A DNA stretch of 21,994 nucleotides, from the NCBI GenBank assembly GCA_003446665.1, contig DMCT01000004.1:1-21994 (forward strand), in the 5' to 3' direction. This document shows, piece after piece, positions 1 through 19,464 of this stretch (the first letter of the stretch is position 1; each line of letters starts with the position of its first letter). The translations under genes and the position numbers were made by a program. A model generated the notes under the pieces. The model saw only the letters and a list, made by a program, of their open reading frames with translations, did not search any database and was not told where the DNA came from. The DNA comes from Synergistaceae bacterium (GTDB lineage: Bacteria; Synergistota; Synergistia; Synergistales; Thermovirgaceae).

Positions 1-601
1 AAGCGCTTTTGTTTATGCCTACCTCTCTCAGGATTTCGGCCGCCGCCAGGACTACGGCTGTCGGAGGTCCCGGGCTCCAGGAGCGGTGTGCGCCTCCGTC
101 TTTGGAAAAAAGCCGCGCAAGAACTCTGCCCCGGTACGCCAGGGCTATGCCGTCGGTACCTGTAGGTTCTCCCACGATGCACGCCGACGGGCAGTGCAAA
201 GCCACCCTGTGGCGGGCTCCCCGGGAATCTTTCTCTTCCCCTACGGCGGCGATGAGCGTTACTTTCCATTCGTGTGAAACCTCGACCAGCGCTCCCGCTA
301 CGGCCAGTGCGCAAAGAGGCCCTTTGGCGTCTACTGTTCCCCTGCCGTGCATGGTCCCGTTATCGAGACGAAATTGGGGCCCACCTTGCACGGTGTCGAT
401 GTGTCCCAAAAGGATCAATTCTTTTTGTCCTCTGCCGCGACTAGCGACGACATTTCCCACTTCGTCCCTTTCGACAGTATCCCAACCGAGATCCTTAAGC
501 CTCGTGGCCAGAAGCGTGGTAGCTGCGTCCTCGGAACCGCTCGGACTCGGTGTTTTTACTATTTCTGCTAAAAAACGGATTTCAAAGGTTGTATCACCCA
601 T
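1..601 (-). CDS. lysK: LysK, [LysW]-lysine/ornithine hydrolase (3' end cut by window edge)
   Basis: This is an M20-family zinc carboxypeptidase that would release lysine (or ornithine) from the C-terminal Glu of LysW, the last step of the carrier-protein pathway. The first 200 codons are present. Visible metallopeptidase motifs are LLGHIDTV (zinc ligand His67, Asp69), GRGTVDAKG (bridging Asp91), GEEKDSRGA (general base Glu122 and metal ligand Glu123) and VGEPT (Glu145). The ATG at 601-599 sits inside the end of lysJ, sharing the 8 bases ATGGGTGA, so the two are translationally coupled. The reading frame is open to base 1, and the remaining C-terminal part (family length is about 350 residues) lies outside the window. 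The position after lysW-X-Y-Z-J supports LysK over other M20 peptidases such as ArgE or DapE. Confidence 0.9.
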   Translation of the reverse strand, partial: MGDTTFEIRFLAEIVKTPSPSGSEDAATTLLATRLKDLGWDTVERDEVGNVVASRGRGQKELILLGHIDTVQGGPQFRLDNGTMHGRGTVDAKGPLCALAVAGALVEVSHEWKVTLIAAVGEEKDSRGARHRVALHCPSACIVGEPTGTDGIALAYRGRVLARLFSKDGGAHRSWSPGPPTAVVLAAAEILREVGINKSA

Positions 602-1718
602 GAGTCACCAACACCTCCTCGAATATGGCGACGGCCTTTTCAAAGTGCTTAAATTCCGTTGTAAAAGGAGGTAGAAAACGGACAACGAAGGGACCCGCGG
701 GAAGAGCCAGCAATCCCTTTTCCTGAAGAGACTTGATCACCGGATAAGATTTCACGCGCAATTCGACCCCTACCAAAAGCCCGAGACCACGGACTTCGTT
801 GATCACCGGGCTTTGGATGTCTTTGATAAGTTGCCTGAAGATTGAGCCCAGTGAGTCAGCCAGGGCAGGATAATTGTTTTCCTCAAGCAGCCTGGTGGCG
901 GCGAGCGCCACAGAACATACCAGCGGGTTGCCTCCTGTGGTGGAGCCGTGGCTCATCGGGGGAAAATCTACAAGGTCCTCGCGCCAAAGGATGACGCCGA
1001 CGGGAAGTCCCCCTGCCACACCCTTTGAAAGGCAAACTATATCGGGATCGAGGCCGGTCTTTTCGCTTGCGAGAAAGGCTCCGCATCGACCAAACCCGCT
1101 CTGGATCTCATCGGCGACAAGCAAAGCTCCCGTTTGCCGGCATTGTGCCGTAAGCTGACGGCCGATTTCTTTTCTTATTACATTAACGCCTCCTTCGCCC
1201 TGGACGGGTTCCACGAATACGGCAAGTGTGGTTTCGTCAATAGCGTCGGCGATCTCCTCCGGTTCGAAAAACTCCGCATCAAAAAGGAAAGGTGCAAAAG
1301 GTTTCCGGTATTTGGGATTAAAAGTCAGGCTCAAGGCTCCCGTAGATCGTCCGTGAAAGCTTCTTCGCAAAGCCAGAATTCTCGATCTTTCCGGTCGGTT
1401 CAGTGCGCAAATTTTCAAGGCGCCTTCGATAGCCTCGGTGCCGCTGTTGGTCCAGAAGGCCCTGTAACCTGGAAGGTGAGATACAAGTGCCTCCGTTGCT
1501 GCTTCCCTGAACTCGCAGATAAGTCCGGAACCGGTATTCCACGGCTTCCCGGCTGCCTCTTTGAGTGCCGATACGAGGTCAGGGTTGGAGTGGCCGAACA
1601 GGGAGGCGCCATGACCGGCAAAAAAGTCGATGTATTCTCTCCCGGTTTGGTCGAAAAGAATCGCTCCCCTTCCTCCGGAGACGTTCAAACCGCGATTCCC
1701 GTAGATCTGGCTTTGCAC
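594..1718 (-). CDS. lysJ: LysJ, [LysW]-aminoadipate semialdehyde/glutamate semialdehyde transaminase
   Basis: This is a class-III PLP-dependent aminotransferase of 374 residues that converts the LysW-bound semialdehyde to LysW-lysine (or LysW-ornithine). Family marks are NSGTEAIEGALK (residues 91-102, cofactor phosphate region), the Asp of VADEIQSGFGR (201-211) and the Schiff-base lysine in LSKGVAGGLPVG (Lys232). The start is a GTG at 1718, with GGAGG nine bases upstream. It overlaps the end of lysZ by 34 bases, and its stop overlaps lysK by 8, so the three form a tightly coupled block. By sequence alone it could equally be called ArgD; the LysW/LysX context decides the name. Confidence 0.9.
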   Translation of the reverse strand: MQSQIYGNRGLNVSGGRGAILFDQTGREYIDFFAGHGASLFGHSNPDLVSALKEAAGKPWNTGSGLICEFREAATEALVSHLPGYRAFWTNSGTEAIEGALKICALNRPERSRILALRRSFHGRSTGALSLTFNPKYRKPFAPFLFDAEFFEPEEIADAIDETTLAVFVEPVQGEGGVNVIRKEIGRQLTAQCRQTGALLVADEIQSGFGRCGAFLASEKTGLDPDIVCLSKGVAGGLPVGVILWREDLVDFPPMSHGSTTGGNPLVCSVALAATRLLEENNYPALADSLGSIFRQLIKDIQSPVINEVRGLGLLVGVELRVKSYPVIKSLQEKGLLALPAGPFVVRFLPPFTTEFKHFEKAVAIFEEVLVTHG

Positions 1719-2521
1719 AGCCTGGTCCCTCCTCCTGTTAGTGCCGCGGTAAGTGGGTTGTCTACACGACTGTCGGAGATTATGGAAAGTTCTACGCCTC
1801 CATCGAGAGCCTCCCTGCAGGCGAGAACCTTTCTTTTCATGTTTCCTTGTGCCACTTCCGAAGCGGTCTCGAACTCATCTCCTTCTACCTGCCTGATTAC
1901 CGAATCGGGATCTGAAGGATCCTGCATAAGCCCCGGGACGTTTGAAAGAAGAATCAGTACTTCCGCTCCAACAGCCGAGGCTATGAAAGCGGCGGCCCTG
2001 TCTCCGTCAACGTTGACAGCTTCGAAGGTTTCCAGGTCGGCCGCGAGAGGAGGGATTACCGGCAAAAAGCCCCTTTCGGCAAGATCCAGTATTAATTCAG
2101 TGCGAACGTTTCTTATCGTTCCGCTTCTGTTGCCGCGGAGGATCTTTACCCTGTTTTGTACCTTTTCACGCAGGTATTTTTTTGTTACCGCCTCGATTAT
2201 CCTTTCAGAAACCGGATCGCAGGCGGCTGCGGGAACACCCAATCGGCAAAGGCTGAAGCAGGTTCGAGCCGTAACCGACAGGGCAGCCGATTCGAAAAGA
2301 GACATTTCGACGTCGCCTACGAAACGGCTCCTGTAACCTGATGGGCTTGTTACGTATCGCGGCTCTATCCCTATGCTTCTGCAAAGGAGATCCATAGTGG
2401 CGCTAGCACCATGGACGAGAATCCATCGTTCTCCCTCTTTGAATCGTCCGGCCAGGTCTTTAAGGAGTGGTTGCGGATTGTTTCCCAAGGCCCCGCCTAT
2501 TTTTACTACTCCCTTTATCAT
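1685..2521 (-). CDS. lysZ: LysZ, [LysW]-aminoadipate/glutamate kinase
   Basis: This is an amino-acid kinase (N-acetylglutamate kinase fold) of 278 residues that phosphorylates the side-chain carboxyl of the LysW-bound acceptor. Visible motifs are the N-terminal VKIGGALGNN (residues 6-15, phosphate-binding Lys7 and Gly-rich turn), LVHGAS, the SPSGYRSRFVGD segment near residue 60-70 where ArgB relatives bind the acceptor, NVDGDRAAA in the nucleotide region and LLSNVPGL. The start is ATG 2521, 41 bases after the lysY stop, with an AGGA-type ribosome site slightly far upstream. The 3' end overlaps lysJ. An ArgB acting on free acetylglutamate is the alternative; the LysW operon makes that unlikely. 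Confidence 0.88.
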   Translation of the reverse strand: MIKGVVKIGGALGNNPQPLLKDLAGRFKEGERWILVHGASATMDLLCRSIGIEPRYVTSPSGYRSRFVGDVEMSLFESAALSVTARTCFSLCRLGVPAAACDPVSERIIEAVTKKYLREKVQNRVKILRGNRSGTIRNVRTELILDLAERGFLPVIPPLAADLETFEAVNVDGDRAAAFIASAVGAEVLILLSNVPGLMQDPSDPDSVIRQVEGDEFETASEVAQGNMKRKVLACREALDGGVELSIISDSRVDNPLTAALTGGGTRLCKARSTGIAV

Positions 2522-2562
2522 TTCGTTTCACGTCCTTCCTTTAAATTGGTTTTATTCTCAGG

Positions 2563-3618
2563 TCAGACAGGGTAAACGGGCTGCATGTTGAGTCCTGCGA
2601 CCTCGGGTAAACCAAGCATTAAGTTTGCGGACTGAATCGCTGATCCGGCGGCTCCTTTCATGAGATTGTCCAGCGCGGAAACAACGAGGCAACGTCTTCC
2701 TCCTTCACGAAGGGCGAAGCCGATCTGAACGTTATTGCTCCCTGTAGTCAGTCTTGGGTCCGGGAATCTTTGATGAGCAGGCCTTGCAGGACAAAGATGA
2801 ACGAAAGGTTCGTTGCCGTAGGCGTCGCGATATAAACGCCACAGATCTCTTTCCTTGAGGCTGCTCGAAAGAGTGACTTCAGCGCAAGCCTGTACACCTC
2901 GAACCGTTTCGACCGCCGAAAGGCGCATCGAAAGGGTTTCTTCCCTCAGTGAGAGCTCCTGTGCGACTTCGCCAAGATGCCGATGAGAGAATGGTTCGAC
3001 GATGCGAAGGGCCCTGCTCCGAAAAGGGTGATGGCTGCCGGCAGTTGCCGTAGAGCCTCCTTCAGATGACCCGGCCCTGATGTCCAGGAAAGCCTCCTGA
3101 ATGAGATTCAGTCGGGCAAGGGGATAAAGACACAAGATAGACGCCGCCGCGTTGCATCCGACACCGGAAACAAGGCGTGCCCCAGCGAGCTGCGTCCTGT
3201 GAAGTTCAGGTAACCCGTAGACGGCTTCCCGAAGGAGGTACGGTTGCGAAGGAGATATCCCGTACCAGCGTTCATAAGTTGCCGGATCTTTTAGTCTAAA
3301 ATCCGCCGAAAGATCGACGACAGAAAGACCTCTGTCCAGGAGTTCGCGAACCGTTTCGGCGGACCTCCCGTGAGGCAAGGAGGTAAAAGCGATGTCGGCT
3401 TCCACCGTCCGGGCGTTCTCGGGAGATATAAATGTCGTCTTGGAATAAATATGACGCAAGTGTGGGTGAACGGAGCCGATAGCTGAACCTGACTTGCTCT
3501 GTGAAACCGCCCCGACCAGTTCCAAAGTCGGGTGGCCTGAAATGATGCGAAGAAGTTCTCCTCCTGCCATCCCTCCGGCGCCGTAAACAAGAGCCTTGAA
3601 ACAACTTTGCCTGCTCAC
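2563..3618 (-). CDS. lysY: LysY, [LysW]-aminoadipate/glutamate 6-phosphate reductase
   Basis: This is an ArgC-family NADPH-dependent reductase that turns the acyl phosphate on LysW into the semialdehyde. The Rossmann motif GAGGMAGGELLRI lies at the N terminus, and the catalytic cysteine is in SGVGCNAAAS at about residue 151. SALDNLMKGAAGSA near the C terminus is the usual closing segment of the family. Two GTG starts are possible. GTG 3627 is only two bases from the GAAGGG ribosome site, while GTG 3618 has about 8-11 bases of spacing, so I chose 3618 (351 residues). The gene follows a strong intrinsic terminator behind lysX, so its transcription needs readthrough or a promoter I could not identify. 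Confidence 0.88.
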   Translation of the reverse strand: MSRQSCFKALVYGAGGMAGGELLRIISGHPTLELVGAVSQSKSGSAIGSVHPHLRHIYSKTTFISPENARTVEADIAFTSLPHGRSAETVRELLDRGLSVVDLSADFRLKDPATYERWYGISPSQPYLLREAVYGLPELHRTQLAGARLVSGVGCNAAASILCLYPLARLNLIQEAFLDIRAGSSEGGSTATAGSHHPFRSRALRIVEPFSHRHLGEVAQELSLREETLSMRLSAVETVRGVQACAEVTLSSSLKERDLWRLYRDAYGNEPFVHLCPARPAHQRFPDPRLTTGSNNVQIGFALREGGRRCLVVSALDNLMKGAAGSAIQSANLMLGLPEVAGLNMQPVYPV

Positions 3619-3646
3619 TTTAAACACTTCCCTTCGATATCAGTCG

Positions 3647-3676
3647 AAAAAAAAGCCCGTGGTTTTCCCCACGGGC
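3647..3676 (-). terminator. Intrinsic terminator between lysX and lysY
   Basis: A perfect 8-bp stem GCCCGTGG/CCACGGGC with a 6-base loop is followed on the minus strand by eight T residues (3654-3647). It lies 36 bases after the lysX stop and about 20 bases before the lysY ribosome site, that is, inside the operon. Just upstream is the 10-bp palindrome GGAACGTTCC. Confidence 0.85.
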
Positions 3677-3711
3677 CCGGAACGTTCCTGTCGATCTGAG
3701 GTGCAATCACT

Positions 3712-4629
3712 TTAGTGAAGATTGGTGACCTCCGGGCCTCTGGGGTTAGCTATTTTGCAGGCGGGTTTATTCCCGCCGGTCGTGGAAGGCTTTCGCTTCA
3801 AAAGGCTGGCGCACAACTCAACGACACGCCCAGGTATGTCCTCTCCCGTCGGAGCGATAGAATTGCGGAATTCAGCGCCGTCGTTGATCTCGTTCACCAG
3901 GTAGCCCCCCTTGGTTAAAAAGAGGTCCACGGCAAGGAAATCGCCTTGTATGGCGTCGTAAATCCGCAAAAGAAGACTTCTAAGATCCTCGTGCAGAGGA
4001 TGTTCTGTGGCCGAACCTCCTCGGGCAGTGTTGGTGATCCAGTGGCCGGAGTAGCGCCTTATTGCGCAGACCGGTTCTCCTCCGATAATGAAGGCCCTGA
4101 TATCGAATCCGTCCTTTTCCACCCATTCCTGAATATAAAAAACCTGATGTTGCGGGCCGAGATGCTCCTTGTGTTCCGCTATTGCTTCCGCCGTTTCCGC
4201 GTCTTGTACTTTGGCGAGCAGTCTCCCCCAGCTCCCGGTGGCAGGTTTAAAAACGACCGGATACCCAAGTTCAGCGGCAGCCTGCAGGGCACCTTCACGG
4301 GACAAGGCCACCCTGTAGCGGGGTTGTGGAATGCCGGCTTCCTGGAGAACGCTGCTCGTGGCTACCTTGTCTCCGCAAAGCTCCATTACCCGGGAGGAAT
4401 TAACCGTTCGGAATCCGCTTCTTTCAAGCATTCTTGCTACTGCAAGGTTTTGGTGATGCCCGATGCAGCGACACAGGAAAATGTCCTCGCTGTCCTGAAG
4501 CCCAGGGAAAACGGCGTCTCTCACGTTTTCGATCACGAATGGAAGGGCCCTTTTCCCCGCTGCTTCAGCTAACAGCTTCTCTTCGGTTCTGAGTCTTGTA
4601 AAAAGAAGCCTTATACTGCCGTTACTCAC
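3712..4629 (-). CDS. lysX: LysX, LysW--alpha-aminoadipate (or glutamate) ligase
   Basis: This is an ATP-grasp ligase of the RimK/LysX group, 305 residues, that joins the alpha-amino group of aminoadipate (or glutamate in ArgX enzymes) to the C-terminal Glu of LysW. Visible are GDKVATSSVLQEAGIPQP entering the ATP-grasp domain, GYPVVFKPATGSWGRLLAK (nucleotide-binding lysine and glycine-rich loop), QEWVEKDGFDIRAF, and VNEINDGAEFRNS with the metal-binding Glu/Asn. The start is a GTG at 4629 sharing 8 bases (GTGAGTAA) with the end of lysW, which implies coupled translation of carrier and ligase. The last 25 or so residues after the fold are polar and unusual. Whether it prefers aminoadipate or glutamate cannot be read with certainty; the lysine-type T-box upstream favours aminoadipate. 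Confidence 0.9.
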   Translation of the reverse strand: MSNGSIRLLFTRLRTEEKLLAEAAGKRALPFVIENVRDAVFPGLQDSEDIFLCRCIGHHQNLAVARMLERSGFRTVNSSRVMELCGDKVATSSVLQEAGIPQPRYRVALSREGALQAAAELGYPVVFKPATGSWGRLLAKVQDAETAEAIAEHKEHLGPQHQVFYIQEWVEKDGFDIRAFIIGGEPVCAIRRYSGHWITNTARGGSATEHPLHEDLRSLLLRIYDAIQGDFLAVDLFLTKGGYLVNEINDGAEFRNSIAPTGEDIPGRVVELCASLLKRKPSTTGGNKPACKIANPRGPEVTNLH

Positions 4630-11343: not shown

Positions 11344-11820
11344 ATGGGTAAGCTTGAAGGTAAAAAGCTTCTTCTTCTGGGAGAGCGTGACGGCATCGCC
11401 GGACCAGCCATGGAAGAAGCCCTCAAAGGAAGCGGAGCCGAGATCATCTTCTCTGTGACGGAATGCTTCGTCTGAACTGCCGCTGGAGCCATGGACCTGG
11501 AAAACCAGCAGAGGGTCAAAGACGCAGCGGAAAAGTACGGCTCTGAAAACGTCGTGGCGATCCTTGGTAGCAGCGACGCGGAAGGAGCGGAAATTTACGC
11601 TGAAACGTTGACAAAAGGTGACCCTACCTTTGCAGGTCCTTTGGCCGGAGTCCCGTTGGGACTCGCCGTTTATCACGTTTTCGAAAAGGAAATCAGGGAA
11701 GAGTCGGATCCCGATGCCTGGGAAGACCAGATCGGGATGATGGAGATGGTTCTCGATCCCGAAGCATTGAGTGAAGCCGTCCGAAAGATGCGTGAAGAAG
11801 GCAGCAAATACACTCTTTAG
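11344..11820 (+). CDS. grdA: GrdA, selenoprotein A of glycine/sarcosine/betaine reductase (Sec44)
   Basis: Selenoprotein A is a small redox carrier of 158 residues. It takes the carboxymethyl group from the protein B selenol as a carboxymethyl-selenoether and passes it to protein C. The frame starts [20 protein letters not shown] behind GGAGG and runs to a TAG at 11820. It contains one in-frame UGA (11473-11475) at codon 44, in the context [15 protein letters not shown]. This is the invariant CxxU redox motif (Cys41, Sec44) of the family, so the UGA is selenocysteine and not a stop. The same GrdA serves all three substrate-specific B proteins. Gene finders unaware of Sec would call only a fragment from about 11491. 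Confidence 0.96.
11473..11520 (+). promoter_or_regulatory. Candidate SECIS element of grdA
   Basis: Bases just 3' of the UGA can fold. CTGG (11483-11486) can pair with CCAG further down, and a smaller CTGG-AAAA-CCAG hairpin lies within the same segment. Bacterial SECIS elements lie in this position, but the fold is ambiguous by eye. Confidence 0.45.
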
Positions 11821-11824
11821 GTCG

Positions 11825-11872
11825 AAAGGCCGGTGTGGCCAACGCGTTTTATGCGTGGTTTCACCGGACTTT
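11825..11872 (+). other. Long hairpin between grdA and the GrdE/I gene
   Basis: AAAG-g-CCGGTG (11825-11835) pairs with CACCGG-a-CTTT (11862-11872), and an inner ACGC/GCGT stem lies within. There is no T-run after it, so it is not an intrinsic terminator. It fills most of the 81-base gap inside the operon and could adjust mRNA stability or the ratio of GrdA to protein B. Confidence 0.6.
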
Positions 11873-11901
11873 AATGCATGCAAGAGGGGAGAGGGATCCA
11901 T

Positions 11902-13212
11902 ATGAAGCTCGAAATGGGAAAGTTTTATGTGAAAGACATAGTTTTCGGCGATGAGACAAAATTCGAGAACGGGGTTTTGACCGTCGACAAAGCAAATGCT
12001 CTTGAAGTAGTCAGGGAGGACGAACACATCACTTCGGCCGACCTGTTCATCGTTCGTCCAGGTGACGAAGTAAGACTCTGTCCGGTCAAGGACGCCTTTG
12101 AGTTTCGCTGCAAGGTCGAAGGCGGTAAGGGTATATTTCCCGGAGTCACCAGCCCCGTTGCAAAAGCGGGGACGGGAAGAACCCACGTACTGTCGGGATG
12201 CAGTCTTCTAGTGGTGGGAGAGCACTGGGGCGGCTTCCAGGACGGTTTGCTTGACATGTCCGGGAAATACCAGAACCAGTGTATTTTCGGCATGATGCCC
12301 AACCTGGTGCTCGTAGCCGATACTGACGAGGAGTTTGAGCGTTACGAACAGCAGAAGAAAAACCATGCCCTTAGATGGGCGGGCATGCGTTTGGCCGAGC
12401 ATATCGGCCTTTGCGTCAAAGAAAGCACCCCGGACGAGGAGGAAGTTTTTGAGTTGCCGCCCGTCAACCGCAGGCCTGCCGAGGTTCAAAAACTCCCGTC
12501 GGTGGTATACGTTTTGCAGCCCCAGACGCAGATGGAGCAGTTGGGCTACAACACCCTTATATACGGTTGGGACGGTAACAGGATGCTCCCCACATTCATG
12601 CATCCCAATGAGATCATCGACGGTGCCGTAGTTTCCGGCAGTTTCATGCCCGTTTCCTCGAAGATATCAACCTATGAATGGTGCAATCACCCTACCATTC
12701 ACAGGCTAATGAAAGAACACGGCAAGACCATCAACTTCCTTGGCGTGATCATGTCGAACCTCAATCCCAAGATGGAGGAAAAAGAACGCAGTGCCAAGAT
12801 GGTTGCCCAGATGGCGGTAAACCTTGGCGCCGATGGCGCAATCGTATGCGAGGAAGGTTACGGCAACCCCGACGTGGACTACATACAAACTATTGTGGAA
12901 CTCGAAGAAGCGGGCGTCAAGACCGTCGGAATTTCTGACGAATGCACCGGTCGCGACGGCGCATCACAGCCGCTGGTCGCCCTTGACGAAAAGGCTGACG
13001 CACTGGTGCATACGGGCAATGTTTCAGAACTGTATCATCTGGATCCGATGCCGGTTGTGCTCGGGGAGCTGGAAGCCTTGGCCAGGGACGGGAACTCCGG
13101 CGGCTGGGAAGGTTGTATCGCCGAAGACGGGTCGGTAGAGATGGAAAACAACGGCTATTTTTGCTCCAATCACATCAGCGGCTTTTCCAAAAAGACCTGT
13201 GCTGATTTCTAG
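11902..13212 (+). CDS. grdI: Protein B proprotein subunit, GrdE/GrdG/GrdI family (probably betaine reductase GrdI)
   Basis: This 436-residue proprotein forms the alpha/beta part of substrate-specific protein B. Clostridial GrdE is cleaved at Cys242 to give a pyruvoyl group. Family features are GTGRTHVLSG near residue 91, GFQDGLLDMSG near 111, GVIMSNLN (281-288), EEGYGNPDVD (317-326) and DECTGRDGASQPLV (346-359). From memory, the last two match sarcosine/betaine-type GrdG/GrdI better than glycine-type GrdE, and the BCCT betaine transporter downstream agrees. The region aligned to the clostridial cleavage site reads SGSFMPVSSK (245-254) and has no Cys. ATG 11902 has GGGGAGAGGG upstream. The gap to the following selenoprotein gene is 13 bases. 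The betaine assignment is an inference; the family call is secure. Confidence 0.88.
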   Translation: MKLEMGKFYVKDIVFGDETKFENGVLTVDKANALEVVREDEHITSADLFIVRPGDEVRLCPVKDAFEFRCKVEGGKGIFPGVTSPVAKAGTGRTHVLSGCSLLVVGEHWGGFQDGLLDMSGKYQNQCIFGMMPNLVLVADTDEEFERYEQQKKNHALRWAGMRLAEHIGLCVKESTPDEEEVFELPPVNRRPAEVQKLPSVVYVLQPQTQMEQLGYNTLIYGWDGNRMLPTFMHPNEIIDGAVVSGSFMPVSSKISTYEWCNHPTIHRLMKEHGKTINFLGVIMSNLNPKMEEKERSAKMVAQMAVNLGADGAIVCEEGYGNPDVDYIQTIVELEEAGVKTVGISDECTGRDGASQPLVALDEKADALVHTGNVSELYHLDPMPVVLGELEALARDGNSGGWEGCIAEDGSVEMENNGYFCSNHISGFSKKTCADF

Positions 13213-13225
13213 GGAGGGATGTAAG

Positions 13226-14539
13226 ATGAAAAAAGCCATACATTACATCAACCAGTTCTTCGGTCAGGTAGGCGGGGAGGATGCCGCTGATTACAAGCCC
13301 ACATTCCATGACGAACTCGTTGGCTGTTCTAACATGCTCAACCAGATGATGCCCGACGTAGAAGTAACCCACACCATCATTTGCGGCGACAACTACATAG
13401 CCAGCCATACCGACGAGGCTGTTGCCGAAATCATCGACTGGCTCAAGAACCAGGAATTTGACATTTTCTTCGCGGGCCCCGCCTTTATGGCCGGAAGATA
13501 TGGAGTAGGGTGCGGCACCATAGGCAAGGCCGTCAAGGAAACCTTCGGAGTGCCTGTAATTACCTCGATGAACGAAGAAAACCCCGGCGTCGAGATGTTC
13601 CAGAAGGAAATGTACATATTCAAAGGCGGCCGTAAAGCCACCTTCATGAAAGACGACCTTGGGAAAATGGCTGCCTTCGCACAAAAAATCGTAAAGGGCG
13701 AGGAACTGCTCCCCGCTGCGGTTGAAGGTTATTTCCCCAGGGGAATCCGGAAAGAAATCTTCCATCCGGAAGGAATTCCCGCAGCGGACAGGGCTGTCGA
13801 CATGCTCATCAAAAAGCTTAAAGGGGAACCTTTTCAGACGGAGCTTGTTATACCAAAGCGAGAAAGGGTACCGGTGGCACCTCCGATCAAGGACCTGAGT
13901 AAGGCCACTATCGCTCTGGTAGGTTCAAGCGGCGTAGTCCCTTCCAATAATCCTGACAGAATCCAGACGGCTTCGGCGACCAAATGGGGCAAGTACGATA
14001 TTTCAGGGCTTGATCACCTGCCGAAAGGCGAATACAAGACGATACACGCAGGATACGACCCCGAAGCCATTTGTGAGGTTCCGGATCGCGGTATGCCCGT
14101 AGACGCCATGCGCACTTACGAAAGGGAAGGGAAAATCGGCAAGTTGCACGAATACTACTATGTAACCGTGGGTACCGGAACCACTCAGGCCTATGCCGCC
14201 AAGTTCGGGCAGGAAATCGCCGCCGAACTCAAGGAAGCGGGAGTTGATGGCGTCCTCCTGGTAGCCACCTGAGGAACTTGCACTCGTTGCGGCGCAACGA
14301 TGACAAAAGAAATCGAGCGAGCCGGAATTCCTATTGTGATGCTCTGTAACCTCCTGAACGTGGCGAAGTCAGTCGGAGTCAACAAGATGGTCCAAACTGT
14401 CTCGGTCCCCTATCCTCTGGGTGATCCCAACCTGAGCCCCGAAGAGGAATGGAAGCTGCGTTATCATCGGGTAGGTGTGGCTCTTGACGCACTTACAAAG
14501 GACATAGAGGATCAAACGGTCTTTCCGACCAAAATCTGA
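13226..14539 (+). CDS. grdH: Selenoprotein B, GrdB/GrdF/GrdH family (probably betaine reductase GrdH, Sec349)
   Basis: This is the selenoprotein subunit of protein B, 437 residues, which acts on the substrate amine and transfers the carboxymethyl unit to GrdA. The frame starts at ATG 13226 behind GGAGG and continues through an in-frame UGA (14270-14272, codon 349) to TGA at 14539. Around the UGA it reads VAT-U-GTCTRCGATMTKEIERAGIP, the family's UxxCxxC motif with Cys352 and Cys355. The protein continues colinearly with the family after the UGA, so this is selenocysteine and not a nonsense mutation. Partnered with grdA and the GrdE/I gene, and followed by a betaine transporter, it most likely reduces betaine to trimethylamine and acetyl phosphate, with glycine or sarcosine as alternatives. 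The grdC and grdD genes are absent here. Confidence 0.92.
14270..14299 (+). promoter_or_regulatory. SECIS element of the grdB/H-family gene
   Basis: Twelve bases after the UGA a perfect 6-bp stem CGTTGC/GCAACG (14285-14290 with 14294-14299) closes a GGC loop. The position, within about 30 bases downstream of the UGA, fits bacterial SECIS hairpins bound by SelB. Confidence 0.75.
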
Positions 14540-14673: not shown

Positions 14674-14729
14674 TCGATCCGCATGCCGCATTGATTTGAG
14701 TAAAAGGTGATGTCGGTCATGCGGATCGA
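14674..14729. repeat. 12-bp perfect inverted repeat before the BCCT gene
   Basis: TCGATCCGCATG (14674-14685) and CATGCGGATCGA (14718-14729) are exact reverse complements with a 32-base spacer. As RNA they would form a long stem; as DNA they could bind a dimeric regulator. Confidence 0.75.
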
Positions 14730-14732
14730 CGT

Positions 14733-14753
14733 AAGCGCCGCAACGGCGCTTTT
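14733..14753 (+). terminator. Terminator-like hairpin in the BCCT leader
   Basis: AAGCGCCG/CGGCGCTT, an 8-bp perfect stem with a CAA triloop, runs into TTTT. The T-run is short and interrupted by CC, so termination strength is doubtful. Confidence 0.45.
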
Positions 14754-14778
14754 CCAGAGACGGAGGGAGGCGTGCGCC

Positions 14779-16272
14779 TTGGAGAAAAAAAGCGGTTTCA
14801 ACGAAGTATTCGTTATTTCCATGGGAGTAACTTTTGCGGTGGTTCTTTGGGGATTTTTGATGCCTGTGGGTTTCGGAAACTTCGCGACCAGTCTTTTTAA
14901 TTTCCTGGTAAACAATTTTGGCTGGGGCTATATGCTAGCAATGAACATTTTCGTGGTGTTTCCGATTTTTCTGGCTCTAAGCAAATATAGAAACATCAAG
15001 CTGGGTCCGCCGGATTCGAAACCGGAATTTTCCAATTTTTCGTGGTTTGCCATGCTGTTTTCGGCGGGTATGGGCGTAGGTTTGGTCTTTTATGGTGTCG
15101 GGGAACCTGTCTTTCATTTCCTCAGCCCTCCTACGGCTGAACCAGGGACAGCCGCCGCGGCTGCGGAGGCTATGAGAAAATCCTTTTTTCACTGGGGAAT
15201 TCACCCGTGGGCCAGCTACGCGATAATAGCGATGCCCCTGGCCTACTTCCAGTTCCGGAAGGGCTACCCGGGTCTTATCAGCAGCCTCTTTATTCCTTTG
15301 GTAGGTGAAGAAGGTGTAAAGGGAGGCTTCGGCAAGGCGGTCGACATTCTTGCTATTTTTGCCACCGTGGCAGGGATAGCCACGTCGCTGGGTCTTGGAG
15401 TACTTCAGATCAACAGCGGCCTGAACTATCTTTTCGGGATAAGCTCGACAGTAACTGCACAACTTATGATAATCATCGTGCTCGCATTGATATACACAGG
15501 GTCGGCTGTGGCCGGAATCGAAAAGGGTATCAAGCGTGTTGCCGACTCAAACCTCTATATAGCACTGACGCTCCTCGGACTCCTTTTCTTGATTGGACCC
15601 ACGATCAGCATCCTGGAGACATGGTTGTCAACTTTTGGAGACTATCTAAGCAGTCTTGTAAGGGACAGTTTCATGCTCGCCCCGAATGATGAAAAGTACA
15701 AGTCTTGGCTCAATGGCTGGACCATTTTCTACTGGGCGTGGTGGATTGCCTGGGCTCCATTTGTAGGATCTTTTATCGCGAGGATTTCCAAGGGGAGGAC
15801 GATAAGGGAATTCGTACTGGGTGTTCTGATCGTCCCCGCTCTTGGAAGCTTCACCTGGTTCGCAGTTTTCGGGACATCGGCGCTTCATATAGAACTATCG
15901 GGGATAGGAGATCTTGCGACAAAGGTCGCAGCCGATATATCTACCGGAGTTTTCGAGATGTACAGTTACTACATGCTTGGCGGAATAATGTCGGTCATCA
16001 TGGTGGTACTCATCTCCACCTTTTTCATTACTTCTGCTAACTCCGCCACTTTTGTCCTTTCCATGTACTCCACGAGGGGTGACCTGAATCCGCCTAAAGG
16101 GAAGATGGCCATATGGGGTTTTCTCCAGGCTGCCCTTGCCTTCGTTCTCCTCATGACCGGGGGGCTCCAGAATTTGCAAATCGTTTCCATAGCGGCGGCG
16201 GCGCCTTTTACGATAGTGATGGTTCTGGCGTGCTGGTCTATGATGAAGGGCCTGGGACAGGAACACAGCTAG
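14779..16272 (+). CDS. BCCT-family glycine betaine transporter
   Basis: This is a sodium-coupled betaine/carnitine/choline transporter of 497 residues with about twelve membrane helices. It shows the substrate/sodium glycine stretch AGMGVG (residues 96-101) followed by LVFYGVGEP, and the BCCT signature GWTIFYWAWWIAWAPFVG (about 313-330) with the Trp residues that line the betaine site. I chose TTG 14779 because GGAGGGAGG lies eight bases upstream and the length then fits the family. Starts at 14707, 14710 or 14719 would add a hydrophilic extension encoded by the leader hairpins. Standing right after the selenoprotein B gene, it likely feeds betaine to the reductase. Similar transporter genes accompany betaine reductase genes in other anaerobes. 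Confidence 0.92.
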   Translation: MEKKSGFNEVFVISMGVTFAVVLWGFLMPVGFGNFATSLFNFLVNNFGWGYMLAMNIFVVFPIFLALSKYRNIKLGPPDSKPEFSNFSWFAMLFSAGMGVGLVFYGVGEPVFHFLSPPTAEPGTAAAAAEAMRKSFFHWGIHPWASYAIIAMPLAYFQFRKGYPGLISSLFIPLVGEEGVKGGFGKAVDILAIFATVAGIATSLGLGVLQINSGLNYLFGISSTVTAQLMIIIVLALIYTGSAVAGIEKGIKRVADSNLYIALTLLGLLFLIGPTISILETWLSTFGDYLSSLVRDSFMLAPNDEKYKSWLNGWTIFYWAWWIAWAPFVGSFIARISKGRTIREFVLGVLIVPALGSFTWFAVFGTSALHIELSGIGDLATKVAADISTGVFEMYSYYMLGGIMSVIMVVLISTFFITSANSATFVLSMYSTRGDLNPPKGKMAIWGFLQAALAFVLLMTGGLQNLQIVSIAAAAPFTIVMVLACWSMMKGLGQEHS

Positions 16273-17348: not shown

Positions 17349-18179
17349 TTAACCGTTTATTTCCCCCCAAGCCTGTTCCCGCGCTGTTTCCGCCAGAACC
17401 CGCGATCGTGCCGAAGCGGCTCCGATGGCTTTCATGAACGCCGTGCGGATACGGCTTTCCTCAAGCTCGTATATGCCGTCGATGGTCACTCCTCCCGGAG
17501 TCAGTACCATATCCTTGAGTTCGGCCGGGTGTTTACCGGTTTCAAGAAGCAGGCAGGCTGCGCCTATGGCCGTGTGGGCTGCGGCCTCCAGAGCTAGTTT
17601 GCGTGGCAAACCCTCGCGCAGGGCGCCATAGACCATGGACTCGACTACGGTGAAGATATACGCCGGGCCTGAACCTGACATGGCAGTCAAAACGTCCAGA
17701 TATTGTTCTTGCACGCGCTGTATTTCTCCAAACTTGAGTAGGATGCTTTCGAGAAGTTCCAGTTCATCTGCGTCGATAATTTCTGCAGGCGAAAAAAGCG
17801 TGTAACCTTTCAAGACCTTTACGGCGATGTTCGTCATTGCTCGTACCAAACGGCACTCAGGGGCTGCCTTTTGCATGATATCCAGTGAAATGGCAGCCGC
17901 GAAGGAAATGACCATTTTCCCCTGGATGACCTCGGCGATATTCCGCAATACTGGTACGACCTGTGAAGGCTTGACGGCCAGTATGATGATATCGGCATCC
18001 GATGCGGCCTTCGTGTTATCAGTGGTCAAGTTGACTCCTTTTTCACCGAGCCCGTTAATCCTCTCGATCTGCCTCCTGGTCGCCGTTACCTTGCAGTAGG
18101 CCGAAAGCGCTTCCGCCAGGGCACCTCCTATGATGCCGGCCCCGATGACGCTGATATGTAGTTCTTCCAGTTTCTTCAT
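17349..18179 (-). CDS. proC: Pyrroline-5-carboxylate reductase (ProC)
   Basis: This enzyme, 276 residues, reduces pyrroline-5-carboxylate to proline with NAD(P)H, or works in reverse in some fermenters. It has an N-terminal Rossmann motif VIGAGIIGGA (11-20), ILAVKPSQV (66-74), the SGSGPAYIF signature (168-176) and LTPGGVTIDGI (226-236). One oddity: where ProC enzymes usually read RAMPNTP, this one reads RAMTNIAVKVLKGYT (113-127), with Thr in place of the substrate-loop Pro. ATG 18179 is preceded by GGAGG ten bases upstream. A strong terminator lies 25 bases upstream of the start, itself preceded by a promoter and a proline-rich small ORF, suggesting attenuation by proline supply. A ProC-like paralogue is the alternative. 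Confidence 0.88.
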   Translation of the reverse strand: MKKLEELHISVIGAGIIGGALAEALSAYCKVTATRRQIERINGLGEKGVNLTTDNTKAASDADIIILAVKPSQVVPVLRNIAEVIQGKMVISFAAAISLDIMQKAAPECRLVRAMTNIAVKVLKGYTLFSPAEIIDADELELLESILLKFGEIQRVQEQYLDVLTAMSGSGPAYIFTVVESMVYGALREGLPRKLALEAAAHTAIGAACLLLETGKHPAELKDMVLTPGGVTIDGIYELEESRIRTAFMKAIGAASARSRVLAETAREQAWGEING

Positions 18180-18204
18180 CTGTTTTTTCCCTCCTTTTTT
18201 GAAT

Positions 18205-18239
18205 AAAAAAGGCCGCCGACCCGGAAGTCGGCGGCCTTT
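18205..18239 (-). terminator. Intrinsic terminator between the Pro-rich leader ORF and proC
   Basis: A 13-bp perfect stem AAAGGCCGCCGAC/GTCGGCGGCCTTT with a TTCCGG loop is followed on the minus strand by TTTTTTATT. Its loop is complementary to CCGGAA, which occurs twice in the leader ORF. Confidence 0.9.
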
Positions 18240-18273
18240 CAAGTCCATTTGAGCTGCTAAAGTAACTTTGCGA

Positions 18274-18369
18274 TCAGGACACGACCAACCTTTTCCGGTA
18301 GCGATTCTTTCCGGAACACGGCGGAACGCACGGGCTAGGGCTGCTTGTCCTGATAAAACCGTTTTTCAT
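18274..18369 (-). CDS. 31-residue Pro-rich small ORF, probable leader peptide of proC
   Basis: The frame starts at ATG 18369 with AGGAG seven bases upstream and ends in TGA at 18274; the peptide begins MKNGFIRTSS. Residues 11-17 are PSPCVPP, four Pro codons (CCT, CCG, CCG, CCG) in seven positions, followed by CSGKNRYRKR. It has its own consensus promoter (18454-18426), a TTTGCC/GGCAAA hairpin in the 5' UTR, and a strong terminator before proC. The bases of codons 6-8 (ATCAGGACA) pair perfectly with TGTCCTGAT spanning the stop, and two CCGGAA elements lie between. Ribosome stalling at Pro codons could therefore alter folding. An independent microprotein, faintly like a SEC-C tail (PC-SGK-YRK), or a structured RNA are alternatives. 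Confidence 0.65.
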   Translation of the reverse strand: MKNGFIRTSSPSPCVPPCSGKNRYRKRLVVS

Positions 18370-18425
18370 ATCGGTTCTCCTGCCTTTGCCAATAAGGCAA
18401 ATTCCCTCAAAAATTGTTGTGATGT

Positions 18426-18454
18426 AGGATAGAACTTTTTCCGTGAATCGTCAA
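18426..18454 (-). promoter_or_regulatory. Promoter of the Pro-rich leader ORF/proC unit
   Basis: TTGACG (18454-18449) and TATCCT (18431-18426) are separated by exactly 17 bases on the minus strand. The expected start near 18419 gives a leader of about 50 bases before the small ORF. Confidence 0.75.
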
Positions 18455-18493: not shown

Positions 18494-18519
18494 TGTTTTC
18501 AAAAGTTGGGGGTGTCTTG

Positions 18520-19464
18520 ATGTTGAAATGCAAACAAGCTGTCTTTTTCTTTTGTGTTGAAGAACCTCATCACCACGTCGCAAAATCCGTTTTCGAACGG
18601 CTTCAAACTGTATTTGCGCTGGAAGAAGCCGGTTTCAGCATCGACGGTTATCCCGTTTTGCAGCATCGGGACGCTGAAGGCAACCGCCTTTGCTTTTGCC
18701 GCCAGAAAGAGCTAGTCAGTTATGCATTCAGGCACTATCTCCCGACATTGCGGGAACATTTTCTCGATTTCGACATGGCCGGAGAGATCAACTGGCACGA
18801 AGGCGCAAAGGCTCCTGACAGGGTGCTCACACTCCATACCATTGGTGACGTAGAGGCGGGCATCTTTACACCTGCTGACCCCGGGCTCTTCAGGAATTTG
18901 CTGCTTTCGCTCGAAACGGAAAGGGAAAAGGCACATCTGGAGGACTTCGCAGTCATGACGGAAGGTACCCATTGGACGGGTTCCTTCAAGGGGCAAGATC
19001 CAAAAGACCTGAGACACTTGCCGGTGCCGATGGTAGACATCGAGATAGGCAGTACAGCGGAAAGCTGGGAGGATCCTCGCGCCGCGGAAGTCCTGACAAA
19101 AGGTCTGGCGGGTGTTTTCCAAAAGGGAGAATATCCTTCCCCGATTCTCTGTGTAGGAGGCGTACACTTCGAGAGCGCCTTCAATGAAGCGGCCAAAAAC
19201 AGCCTGTACCCTTTTGGAATCTCTCATATTCTTCCCAACCAGTGGCTTGTTTCGGGCGCTTACGACAGAGAAGAAAATTTCTGGAAGCTCGAGGCAGCCG
19301 CCAAAAGCATTAAGGGAAAGCTTAAAGCTGTGGTTTTTCACGAAGGGATCAAGGGCCCTTTCAGGGATGCTTGCAGACGACTGGGCGAAGCTTTCGGTAT
19401 TCCGGTGATGCGTCATAAGCACCTGAAAAATCCCGAAAACCTGGAGTGGTTGCAAAACAAATAA
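18520..19464 (+). CDS. DtdA/GEK1-like D-aminoacyl-tRNA deacylase
   Basis: This 314-residue protein resembles the zinc-dependent archaeal/plant D-aminoacyl-tRNA deacylase (DtdA/GEK1), which hydrolyses D-amino acids mischarged to tRNA. The supporting motifs are HTIGD (106-110), EGTHWTG (148-154), VDIEIGSTAESW (172-183) and CVGGVHFESAF (211-221). These correspond to the conserved HT.G, EIGST...W and GG.HY blocks of that family. The last has Phe where archaeal proteins usually have Tyr. The start ATG 18520 is preceded by GGGGGTG; longer in-frame starts lack a ribosome site. A role in D-amino-acid tolerance fits an amino-acid-fermenting anaerobe, but the family call rests on motif recognition only. 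Confidence 0.72.
   Translation: MLKCKQAVFFFCVEEPHHHVAKSVFERLQTVFALEEAGFSIDGYPVLQHRDAEGNRLCFCRQKELVSYAFRHYLPTLREHFLDFDMAGEINWHEGAKAPDRVLTLHTIGDVEAGIFTPADPGLFRNLLLSLETEREKAHLEDFAVMTEGTHWTGSFKGQDPKDLRHLPVPMVDIEIGSTAESWEDPRAAEVLTKGLAGVFQKGEYPSPILCVGGVHFESAFNEAAKNSLYPFGISHILPNQWLVSGAYDREENFWKLEAAAKSIKGKLKAVVFHEGIKGPFRDACRRLGEAFGIPVMRHKHLKNPENLEWLQNK

Follow-up and report, generated by a model that had tools for sequence, protein, structure and literature searches.

A probable proline attenuator upstream of proC in Synergistota: a leader peptide with interspersed proline codons followed by a covarying terminator

In the trp, his, leu, thr, and phe attenuators, a short open reading frame (ORF) with codons for the end product, mutually exclusive RNA pairings, and a terminator lie before the biosynthetic gene. 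The proline genes of Firmicutes are under T-box control, which senses the charging of tRNA-Pro.

The his leader-peptide attenuator scheme is given as background in the accessible part of PMC9413887. Together with the accessible part of PMC2965389, it presents the His leader peptides of Firmicutes as comparative evidence for attenuation outside Proteobacteria and Actinobacteria; in that same part of PMC9413887, Synergistetes are mentioned only for the HisR repressor. In Salmonella, the mgtP (mgtCBR) and mgtA leaders contain Pro codons, and their transcription goes up when proline is limiting, according to the portion of PMC3641672 that was available.

Here, we focus on the region upstream of proC in a 21,994-nt stretch of DNA from a Synergistaceae bacterium, hereafter the window. 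It is very probable, on the basis of sequence comparison and modelled RNA folds, that this region controls proC by ribosome-mediated transcription attenuation, with charged tRNA-Pro as the signal.

All parts of the locus lie on the minus strand. A sigma-70-type promoter (18426–18454), read directly from the sequence, consists of TTGACG (18454–18449), a 17-nt spacer, and TATCCT (18431–18426). The same boxes precede the leader of a close relative (L083), and similar ones are recognizable by eye in L084, L085, and L092. The leader ORF (18274–18369), identified from the sequence and from leader ORFs in relatives, has 31 codons followed by TGA (18276–18274), and a Shine-Dalgarno sequence, AGGAG (18377–18381), stands 7 nt before its ATG at 18369; an SD-like sequence precedes the start codon in each of 12 leaders compared. 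The predicted peptide is MKNGFIRTSSPSPCVPPCSGKNRYRKRLVVS, with Pro at codons 11, 13, 16, and 17, and the putative control codons 11–17 (18319–18339) read PSPCVPP. Downstream lies an intrinsic terminator (18205–18238; predicted dG −25.3 kcal/mol) with a 13-bp stem (18238–18226 paired with 18221–18209), a TCCG loop, and a T-run reaching 18205. The Shine-Dalgarno sequence of proC, GGAGGG (18189–18194), was read directly and falls outside the terminator. The gene itself, proC (17349–18179, ATG at 18179), encodes pyrroline-5-carboxylate reductase (TIGR00112, 228.9 bits against a cut-off of 196.75; PF14748) and is the presumed target of control. A first-pass annotation of this DNA had listed the promoter, the 31-codon ORF, the terminator, and proC, and the list is correct to the base. 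On the plus strand, a gene for a D-aminoacyl-tRNA deacylase of the PF04414 family (18517–19464), which we take to be the archaeal type, diverges from the proC leader.

Three RNA strands are assigned to the putative switch. Strand 1 (18331–18354) comprises ATCAGGACA and the first Pro codons, and is predicted, from folding and from a matched-strand duplex comparison, to pair with strand 2 when free of ribosomes. Strand 2 (18271–18298) runs from CCGGAA (codons 24–26) via GGUUGGUC to UGUCCUGA at the stop; its CCGG and TGTC.TG are invariant in all 11 leaders that were aligned over this strand. Strand 3 (18222–18246) begins with GGAC, continues into the 5' arm and loop of the terminator, and is the antiterminator partner of strand 2 predicted by folds with a stalled ribosome. 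The first-pass annotation had placed ATCAGGACA (18354–18346) opposite TGTCCTGAT (18281–18273), as is indeed the case, and had proposed that CCGGAA in the ORF pairs with the terminator loop. The predicted switch lies near that proposal, but the element extends from codon 24 to the stop and pairs either with the Pro-codon region or with the 5' arm and loop of the terminator.

From this arrangement we infer the start of transcription, translation of the leader, stalling, termination, and a response to proline as follows. RNA polymerase would begin about 7 nt past TATCCT, with a ribosome translating the leader. When Pro-tRNA is ample, the ribosome would reach the stop codon and cover strand 2, so that the 13-bp terminator could form and transcription would end near 18205. 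A shortage of Pro-tRNA would make the ribosome wait on codons 11–17 and cover strand 1. The free strand 2, from codon 24 to the stop, would then pair with the pre-terminator sequence, the 5' arm, and the loop; the terminator would fail, and proC would be transcribed.

The arrangement recurs in relatives. The ProC of the window is 90% identical to that of a Synergistales metagenome-assembled genome (L001, genome G001); around the leader, the DNA of the window and that of the corresponding locus of this genome (L083) are also about 90% alike. A ProC search over 185 genomes of the same phylum gave matches in 71 at E 1e-20. Among 30 loci, 11 carry a proC leader: L083 (G001), L084 (G185), L085 (G178), L086 (G021), L087 (G181), L092 (G011), L093 (G010), L098 (G123), L101 (G172), L106 (G174), and L107 (G173). 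One more, L143 (G182), came from 40 further upstream regions fetched from 45 additional ProC match rows, a set passed through a coarse terminator filter and including some proC starts that could not be placed. Two leaders, L114 (G183) and L117 (G179), lie at contig ends in genomes that have no ProC match. With the window included, the total is 15.

Conservation was assessed with an automatic filter, written after leaders had been seen, that calls for an ORF of 20–45 codons, an SD-like site, at least three of one residue per nine codons, and a stop 10–60 nt before an intrinsic terminator. From 31 Synergistota proC loci supplied, 30 were examined (one had no usable match). An intrinsic terminator precedes proC in 11 of the 30, and the same 11 all carry a Pro-clustered leader ORF; for residues other than Pro, a clustered leader was found in at most four of the 30 loci (Ser). 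Thus, none of these loci has the terminator without the ORF, whereas a noncoding RNA, as the first-pass annotation had reasoned, would be expected to keep its fold and lose the ORF. As an outside control, 79 proC loci from records not labelled Synergistota were supplied and 77 examined (two were too short); none qualifies, a result that says little because a terminator-like site was present in just 3 of the 77, which makes the control a weak one. On a ProC tree of 31 rows, 12 of them with leaders (L143, L114, and L117 were left out), leader presence requires 2 changes, compared with 9.8 when labels are shuffled, and 0 of 500 shuffles were as low. When the regions upstream of proC are aligned, relatives retain the Pro cluster and the terminator, and the greater part of the peptide has drifted.

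The Pro block is constrained at the level of codons in the closest relatives. Seven of the 15 leaders (window, L083, L084, L114, L085, L117, and L086) align over 31 ungapped codons. Synonymous and nonsynonymous differences, counted over sequence pairs that are not independent events, number 26 and 17 in codons 12–17, against 10 and 143 in codons 2–10 and 14 and 160 in codons 18–31. The difference rates at codon positions 1, 2, and 3 are 0.095, 0.048, and 0.262 in codons 12–17, and 0.434, 0.577, and 0.529 in codons 2–10. Pro13, Cys14, Pro16, and Pro17 are unchanged in all seven, with variation mainly at third positions. The clustering of Pro codons claimed earlier therefore holds for Pro13, Pro16, and Pro17 but not fully for Pro11, which is absent in two of the seven. 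Arg25 and Ser31 are likewise invariant; their codons fall within two elements of strand 2, CCGG and TGTCCTGA. The Shine-Dalgarno sequence, the start codon, and variation in the Pro block that follows the coding phase suggest a translated short ORF, and the codon cluster of the leader is for the amino acid made by the putative regulated gene.

This codon-phase comparison in the seven closest leaders was made after a count of raw Pro codons had failed to discriminate between frames. The 426 codons of 14 leaders include 68 for Pro, compared with 20.5 expected from the proteins of the window, and 0 of 2000 base shuffles (mean 42.9) reached 68; the raw count is not frame-specific, since frame +2 holds 72. 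P values for single leaders span from 0.17 (L083, 3 Pro) to 1.4e-4.

Could the ORF encode a small, conserved protein that has a terminator to itself, proC being simply the gene that follows? Over the 14 leaders, Cys (25 against 5.7 expected) and Arg (51 against 23.8) likewise exceed expectation, as such a protein might show, but most of the peptide on either side of the Pro block is replaced over time, as the synonymous and nonsynonymous counts above make plain. Cys18 is missing in five of the seven closest leaders, and across the wider set each lineage has its own residues beyond the Pro cluster. The first-pass annotation had held that a real microprotein would keep its Cys/Arg sequence and not its Pro codons; here Pro13, 16, and 17 are kept in seven of seven, and Cys18 and most Arg change, while Cys14, Arg25, and Ser31 stay. 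We consider a small protein very improbable, the least probable of the alternatives. Cys14 (18330–18328), which stands beside the control Pro codons, is an observation in its own right: it is invariant in the seven closest leaders, and Cys as a residue is enriched 4.4-fold over 14.

Another explanation retains the RNA switch and replaces its trigger. The ribosome could be stalled by the nascent peptide sequence itself, through PP motifs with EF-P dependence or through a small-molecule effector, with the same switch following. In favour of this, PCVPP hardly varies among the seven closest leaders, Cys14 included, but distant leaders keep just several Pro in clusters such as PSPCPS, PCPCP, LPCYPCP, LPCSPRP, PSPCLP, NPLPSP, and IPSPGSP, and seven leaders (L087, L143, L098, L092, L093, L106, and L107) have no consecutive Pro at all. 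Parallel leaders before other genes, described below, use Tyr or Phe/Tyr/Trp instead. Peptide arrest is therefore an improbable account, if the strongest of those that compete with sensing of charged tRNA-Pro.

The terminator is conserved in its pairing. In all 12 leaders folded, a terminator of 10–14 bp stands 22–42 nt past the stop codon, between ORF and gene, and in an alignment of 11 sequences, 94.4% of stem cells are paired. Six of the 13 pairs change on both sides, compared with 1.9 in shuffles (1 of 500 shuffles has as many), and sliding the terminator partners abolishes the signal. At the leader of L114 (G183), no perfect terminator stem was found by script; a group II intron match (RF02001; L114:1–80, minus strand) lies within about 100 nt downstream of that leader's terminator. 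Loss of the terminator in relatives was a further outcome that the first-pass annotation had named as speaking against itself, and what is seen is a terminator kept with compensating changes. With the Pro cluster conserved as well, and with neither a microprotein nor an ORF-less fold in evidence, its interpretation of the region as a proline attenuator is supported.

The alternative folds are predicted, and their statistical support is modest. Folding with a ribosome placed at different positions covered 12 leaders (L143, L114, and L117 were not included). When an early Pro codon occupies the A site, 3–12 nt of the 5' arm are predicted to pair with upstream sequence in the RNA that extends from downstream of the ribosome to the terminator loop; when the ribosome has reached the stop codon, 0–9 nt of the terminator arm are still paired upstream. 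The predicted gain from pairing the 5' arm is −6.6 to −15.1 kcal/mol with the ribosome on Pro and −1.9 to −7.1 kcal/mol with the ribosome at the stop, a smaller value that is partly due to the shorter RNA. In the window, the modelled stalled fold comprises CGGAA:UUCCG (in the terminator loop), GGUC:GGCC, and GUCC:GGAC. In 11 of the 12 leaders the antiterminator gain is larger than the mean for shuffles, but each leader taken singly is weak (13 to 106 of 200 shuffles are as good). Masking the ribosome-covered bases, as the first-pass annotation had suggested, thus shifts the folds in the direction that an attenuator requires, but weakly so for the window itself, where 69 of 200 shuffles do as well. 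When the 3' arm is included, the equilibrium fold after a stall on Pro is the terminator in 7 of 12 leaders, the window among them; therefore, we infer that the switch must depend on the sequence in which the RNA folds as it is transcribed.

Duplexes between strands of the same leader were also compared with species-swapped ones in 13 leaders (L114 and L117 were left out). Matched duplexes of strands 1 and 2 are better than swapped ones, with 73 of 20000 permutations as good. Those of strands 2 and 3 are less clear-cut (703 of 20000), and the matched 2:3 duplex of the window ranks 12th of 13 in its row and 9th of 13 in its column.

The long leader helix, a folding z-score of −3.4, and a Pro count that is not frame-specific might suggest a riboswitch that binds a metabolite, or some other structured RNA, in which the ORF is incidental. 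Variation in the Pro block nevertheless follows the coding phase, and the RNAalifold consensus of ten leaders holds only the terminator (a 12-bp helix) and one 4-bp hairpin, with no other helices. Because the consensus recovers these two alone, the switching helices are likewise unseen by RNAalifold on the ten-leader alignment. At the gathering score, no Rfam family matches the leader: SECIS_4 is the sole match in the window, nothing matches in 20 loci, and only the group II intron matches in 12 more. The T-box covariance model and the Rfam Trp, His, Leu, Thr, and Phe leaders gave no match at the gathering cut-off in the window or in the 20 and 12 loci. Thirteen sub-threshold Rfam matches at the leader were judged to be chance, the best by score being Phe_leader with 21.9 bits against a required 55. 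These results leave a riboswitch with a slim probability, between those of the peptide-arrest and small-protein accounts, and the proline attenuator remains the preferred reading. The SECIS_4 element lies at 14273–14310, within a region (11491–14310) of glycine/sarcosine/betaine reductase genes (PF04723, PF09338, and PF07355), and is followed by a BCCT transporter gene (14707–16272).

Taken by itself, the window sequence departs little from chance in some respects. Four Pro in 30 codons have P = 0.055 at the Pro frequency of the window, and the predicted antiterminator pairing is equalled by the 69 of 200 shuffles already cited; in the window alone, the Pro count and the antiterminator energy are unconvincing. 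In folding energy, the 245-nt leader lies 3.4 sd below dinucleotide shuffles, with 0 of 200 as low. It is the comparative data, namely codon constraint, terminator covariation, and the locus screen, that place the whole assembly beyond chance.

Similar leaders occur before other genes. When a covariance model built from ten proC leaders was run on 185 genomes, 22 of them yielded a total of 26 matches, which we sorted into 11 proC leaders, seven leaders of a sodium:solute symporter, one of aroE, and seven that look like chance, coding, or antisense matches; at E 0.001 the model misses the leaders of G172, G173, and G174, otherwise weak matches. The symporter was identified by Pfam and NCBIfam in four of the seven cases and by eye in the other three, and AroE by Pfam/NCBIfam. 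Tyr-rich leader ORFs and terminators stand upstream of the symporter in six Synergistota genomes (L199, L201, L204, L209, L210, and L211), and more weakly in L212. Six of these leaders are rich in Tyr (YVYSYIY, YNYYYAYSY, YRYYYY, YYYAYSY, YLYAY, and YLYVY), and the seventh (G123) has just YAY. In G010 and G011, the symporter leader lies directly downstream of proC. The single aroE leader (L208:1572–1670, minus strand), upstream of the shikimate dehydrogenase gene and with a terminator following, has the ORF MGKALLNKNFYFYWFFTFPRSFDASGCLAFFAK and the cluster FYFYWFFTF. The symporter leaders are probably tyrosine attenuators, and the L208 leader is probably an aromatic amino-acid attenuator. The clustered residue thus changes according to the gene that follows, which is what attenuation would lead one to expect: Tyr is found before the symporter and Phe/Tyr/Trp before aroE.

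A wider scheme can be offered tentatively, as a conjecture that may well prove wrong. Synergistota could possess phylum-wide leader-peptide attenuators built on one interchangeable RNA chassis, in which control codons are swapped, and these could be a main layer of amino-acid control in amino-acid fermenters that have no proBA. The proposed chassis would consist of a CCGG - GG - UGUCCU strand 2 and a GGCCGCCGAC-type terminator, with Pro set before proC, Tyr before the sodium symporter, and Phe/Tyr/Trp before aroE.

In 14 genomes with leaders (possibly incomplete), no proB or proA was found over the curated cut-off, only weaker matches to relatives of these families, and the two genes were dropped as candidate co-regulated targets. 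In 12 of 14 control genomes, proB or proA exceeds the cut-off. Absence of proBA extends beyond the leader genomes, since proA is present in 9 of 22 other Synergistota that have ProC and in which no leader was found. Ornithine aminotransferase exceeds the cut-off in 9 of the 14 leader genomes, the closest relative (G001) not being one of them. Because proBA is missing over the cut-off and ornithine aminotransferase is found in 9 of 14, ornithine is the probable source of proline in leader genomes, ProC would catalyse the last dedicated step, and proC may therefore set the supply of proline from ornithine. Ornithine cyclodeaminase-type proteins, a family with other functions too, are found in all 14 leader genomes and may leave a bypass of ProC open. 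In the window, genes for a class III aminotransferase, an amino-acid kinase, a semialdehyde dehydrogenase, and a LysX-type ATP-grasp protein lie in a row (594–4629, minus strand). They presumably belong to a LysW-type lysine/ornithine pathway, which is a possible source of ornithine for proline.

Among the open-access matches listed, judged by titles and the starts of abstracts, there was no leader peptide for proC or proline biosynthesis and none in Synergistota, which is a weak negative. Attenuation of this kind is known, and Pro-codon leaders are known in Salmonella; the proC target and the occurrence in Synergistota appear new as far as the open-access literature listed goes, with the same weak force. 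Ribosome-mediated attenuation would thus be extended, with comparative support, to proline biosynthesis and to Synergistota. The Salmonella mgtP and mgtA leaders share Pro codons in a leader ORF with the leaders described here; in contrast, as far as the accessible portion of that source goes, their targets are mgtC, Mg2+ transporters, and virulence rather than proline synthesis, and they belong to another phylum. The His leader peptides of Firmicutes differ in amino acid, genes, and phylum. Where Firmicutes use a T-box, a short ORF is found here, and no T-box match appears in the window or in the 32 loci. With the trp, his, leu, thr, and phe leaders of Proteobacteria, the proC leaders have in common a short ORF, end-product codons, a terminator, and predicted exclusive pairings; they differ in the use of Pro before proC, in their occurrence in Synergistota, in matching no Rfam family at the gathering score, and in that the Pro codons are interspersed and not in a run. 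The set of leaders can therefore be used to study control codons that are interspersed rather than tandem.
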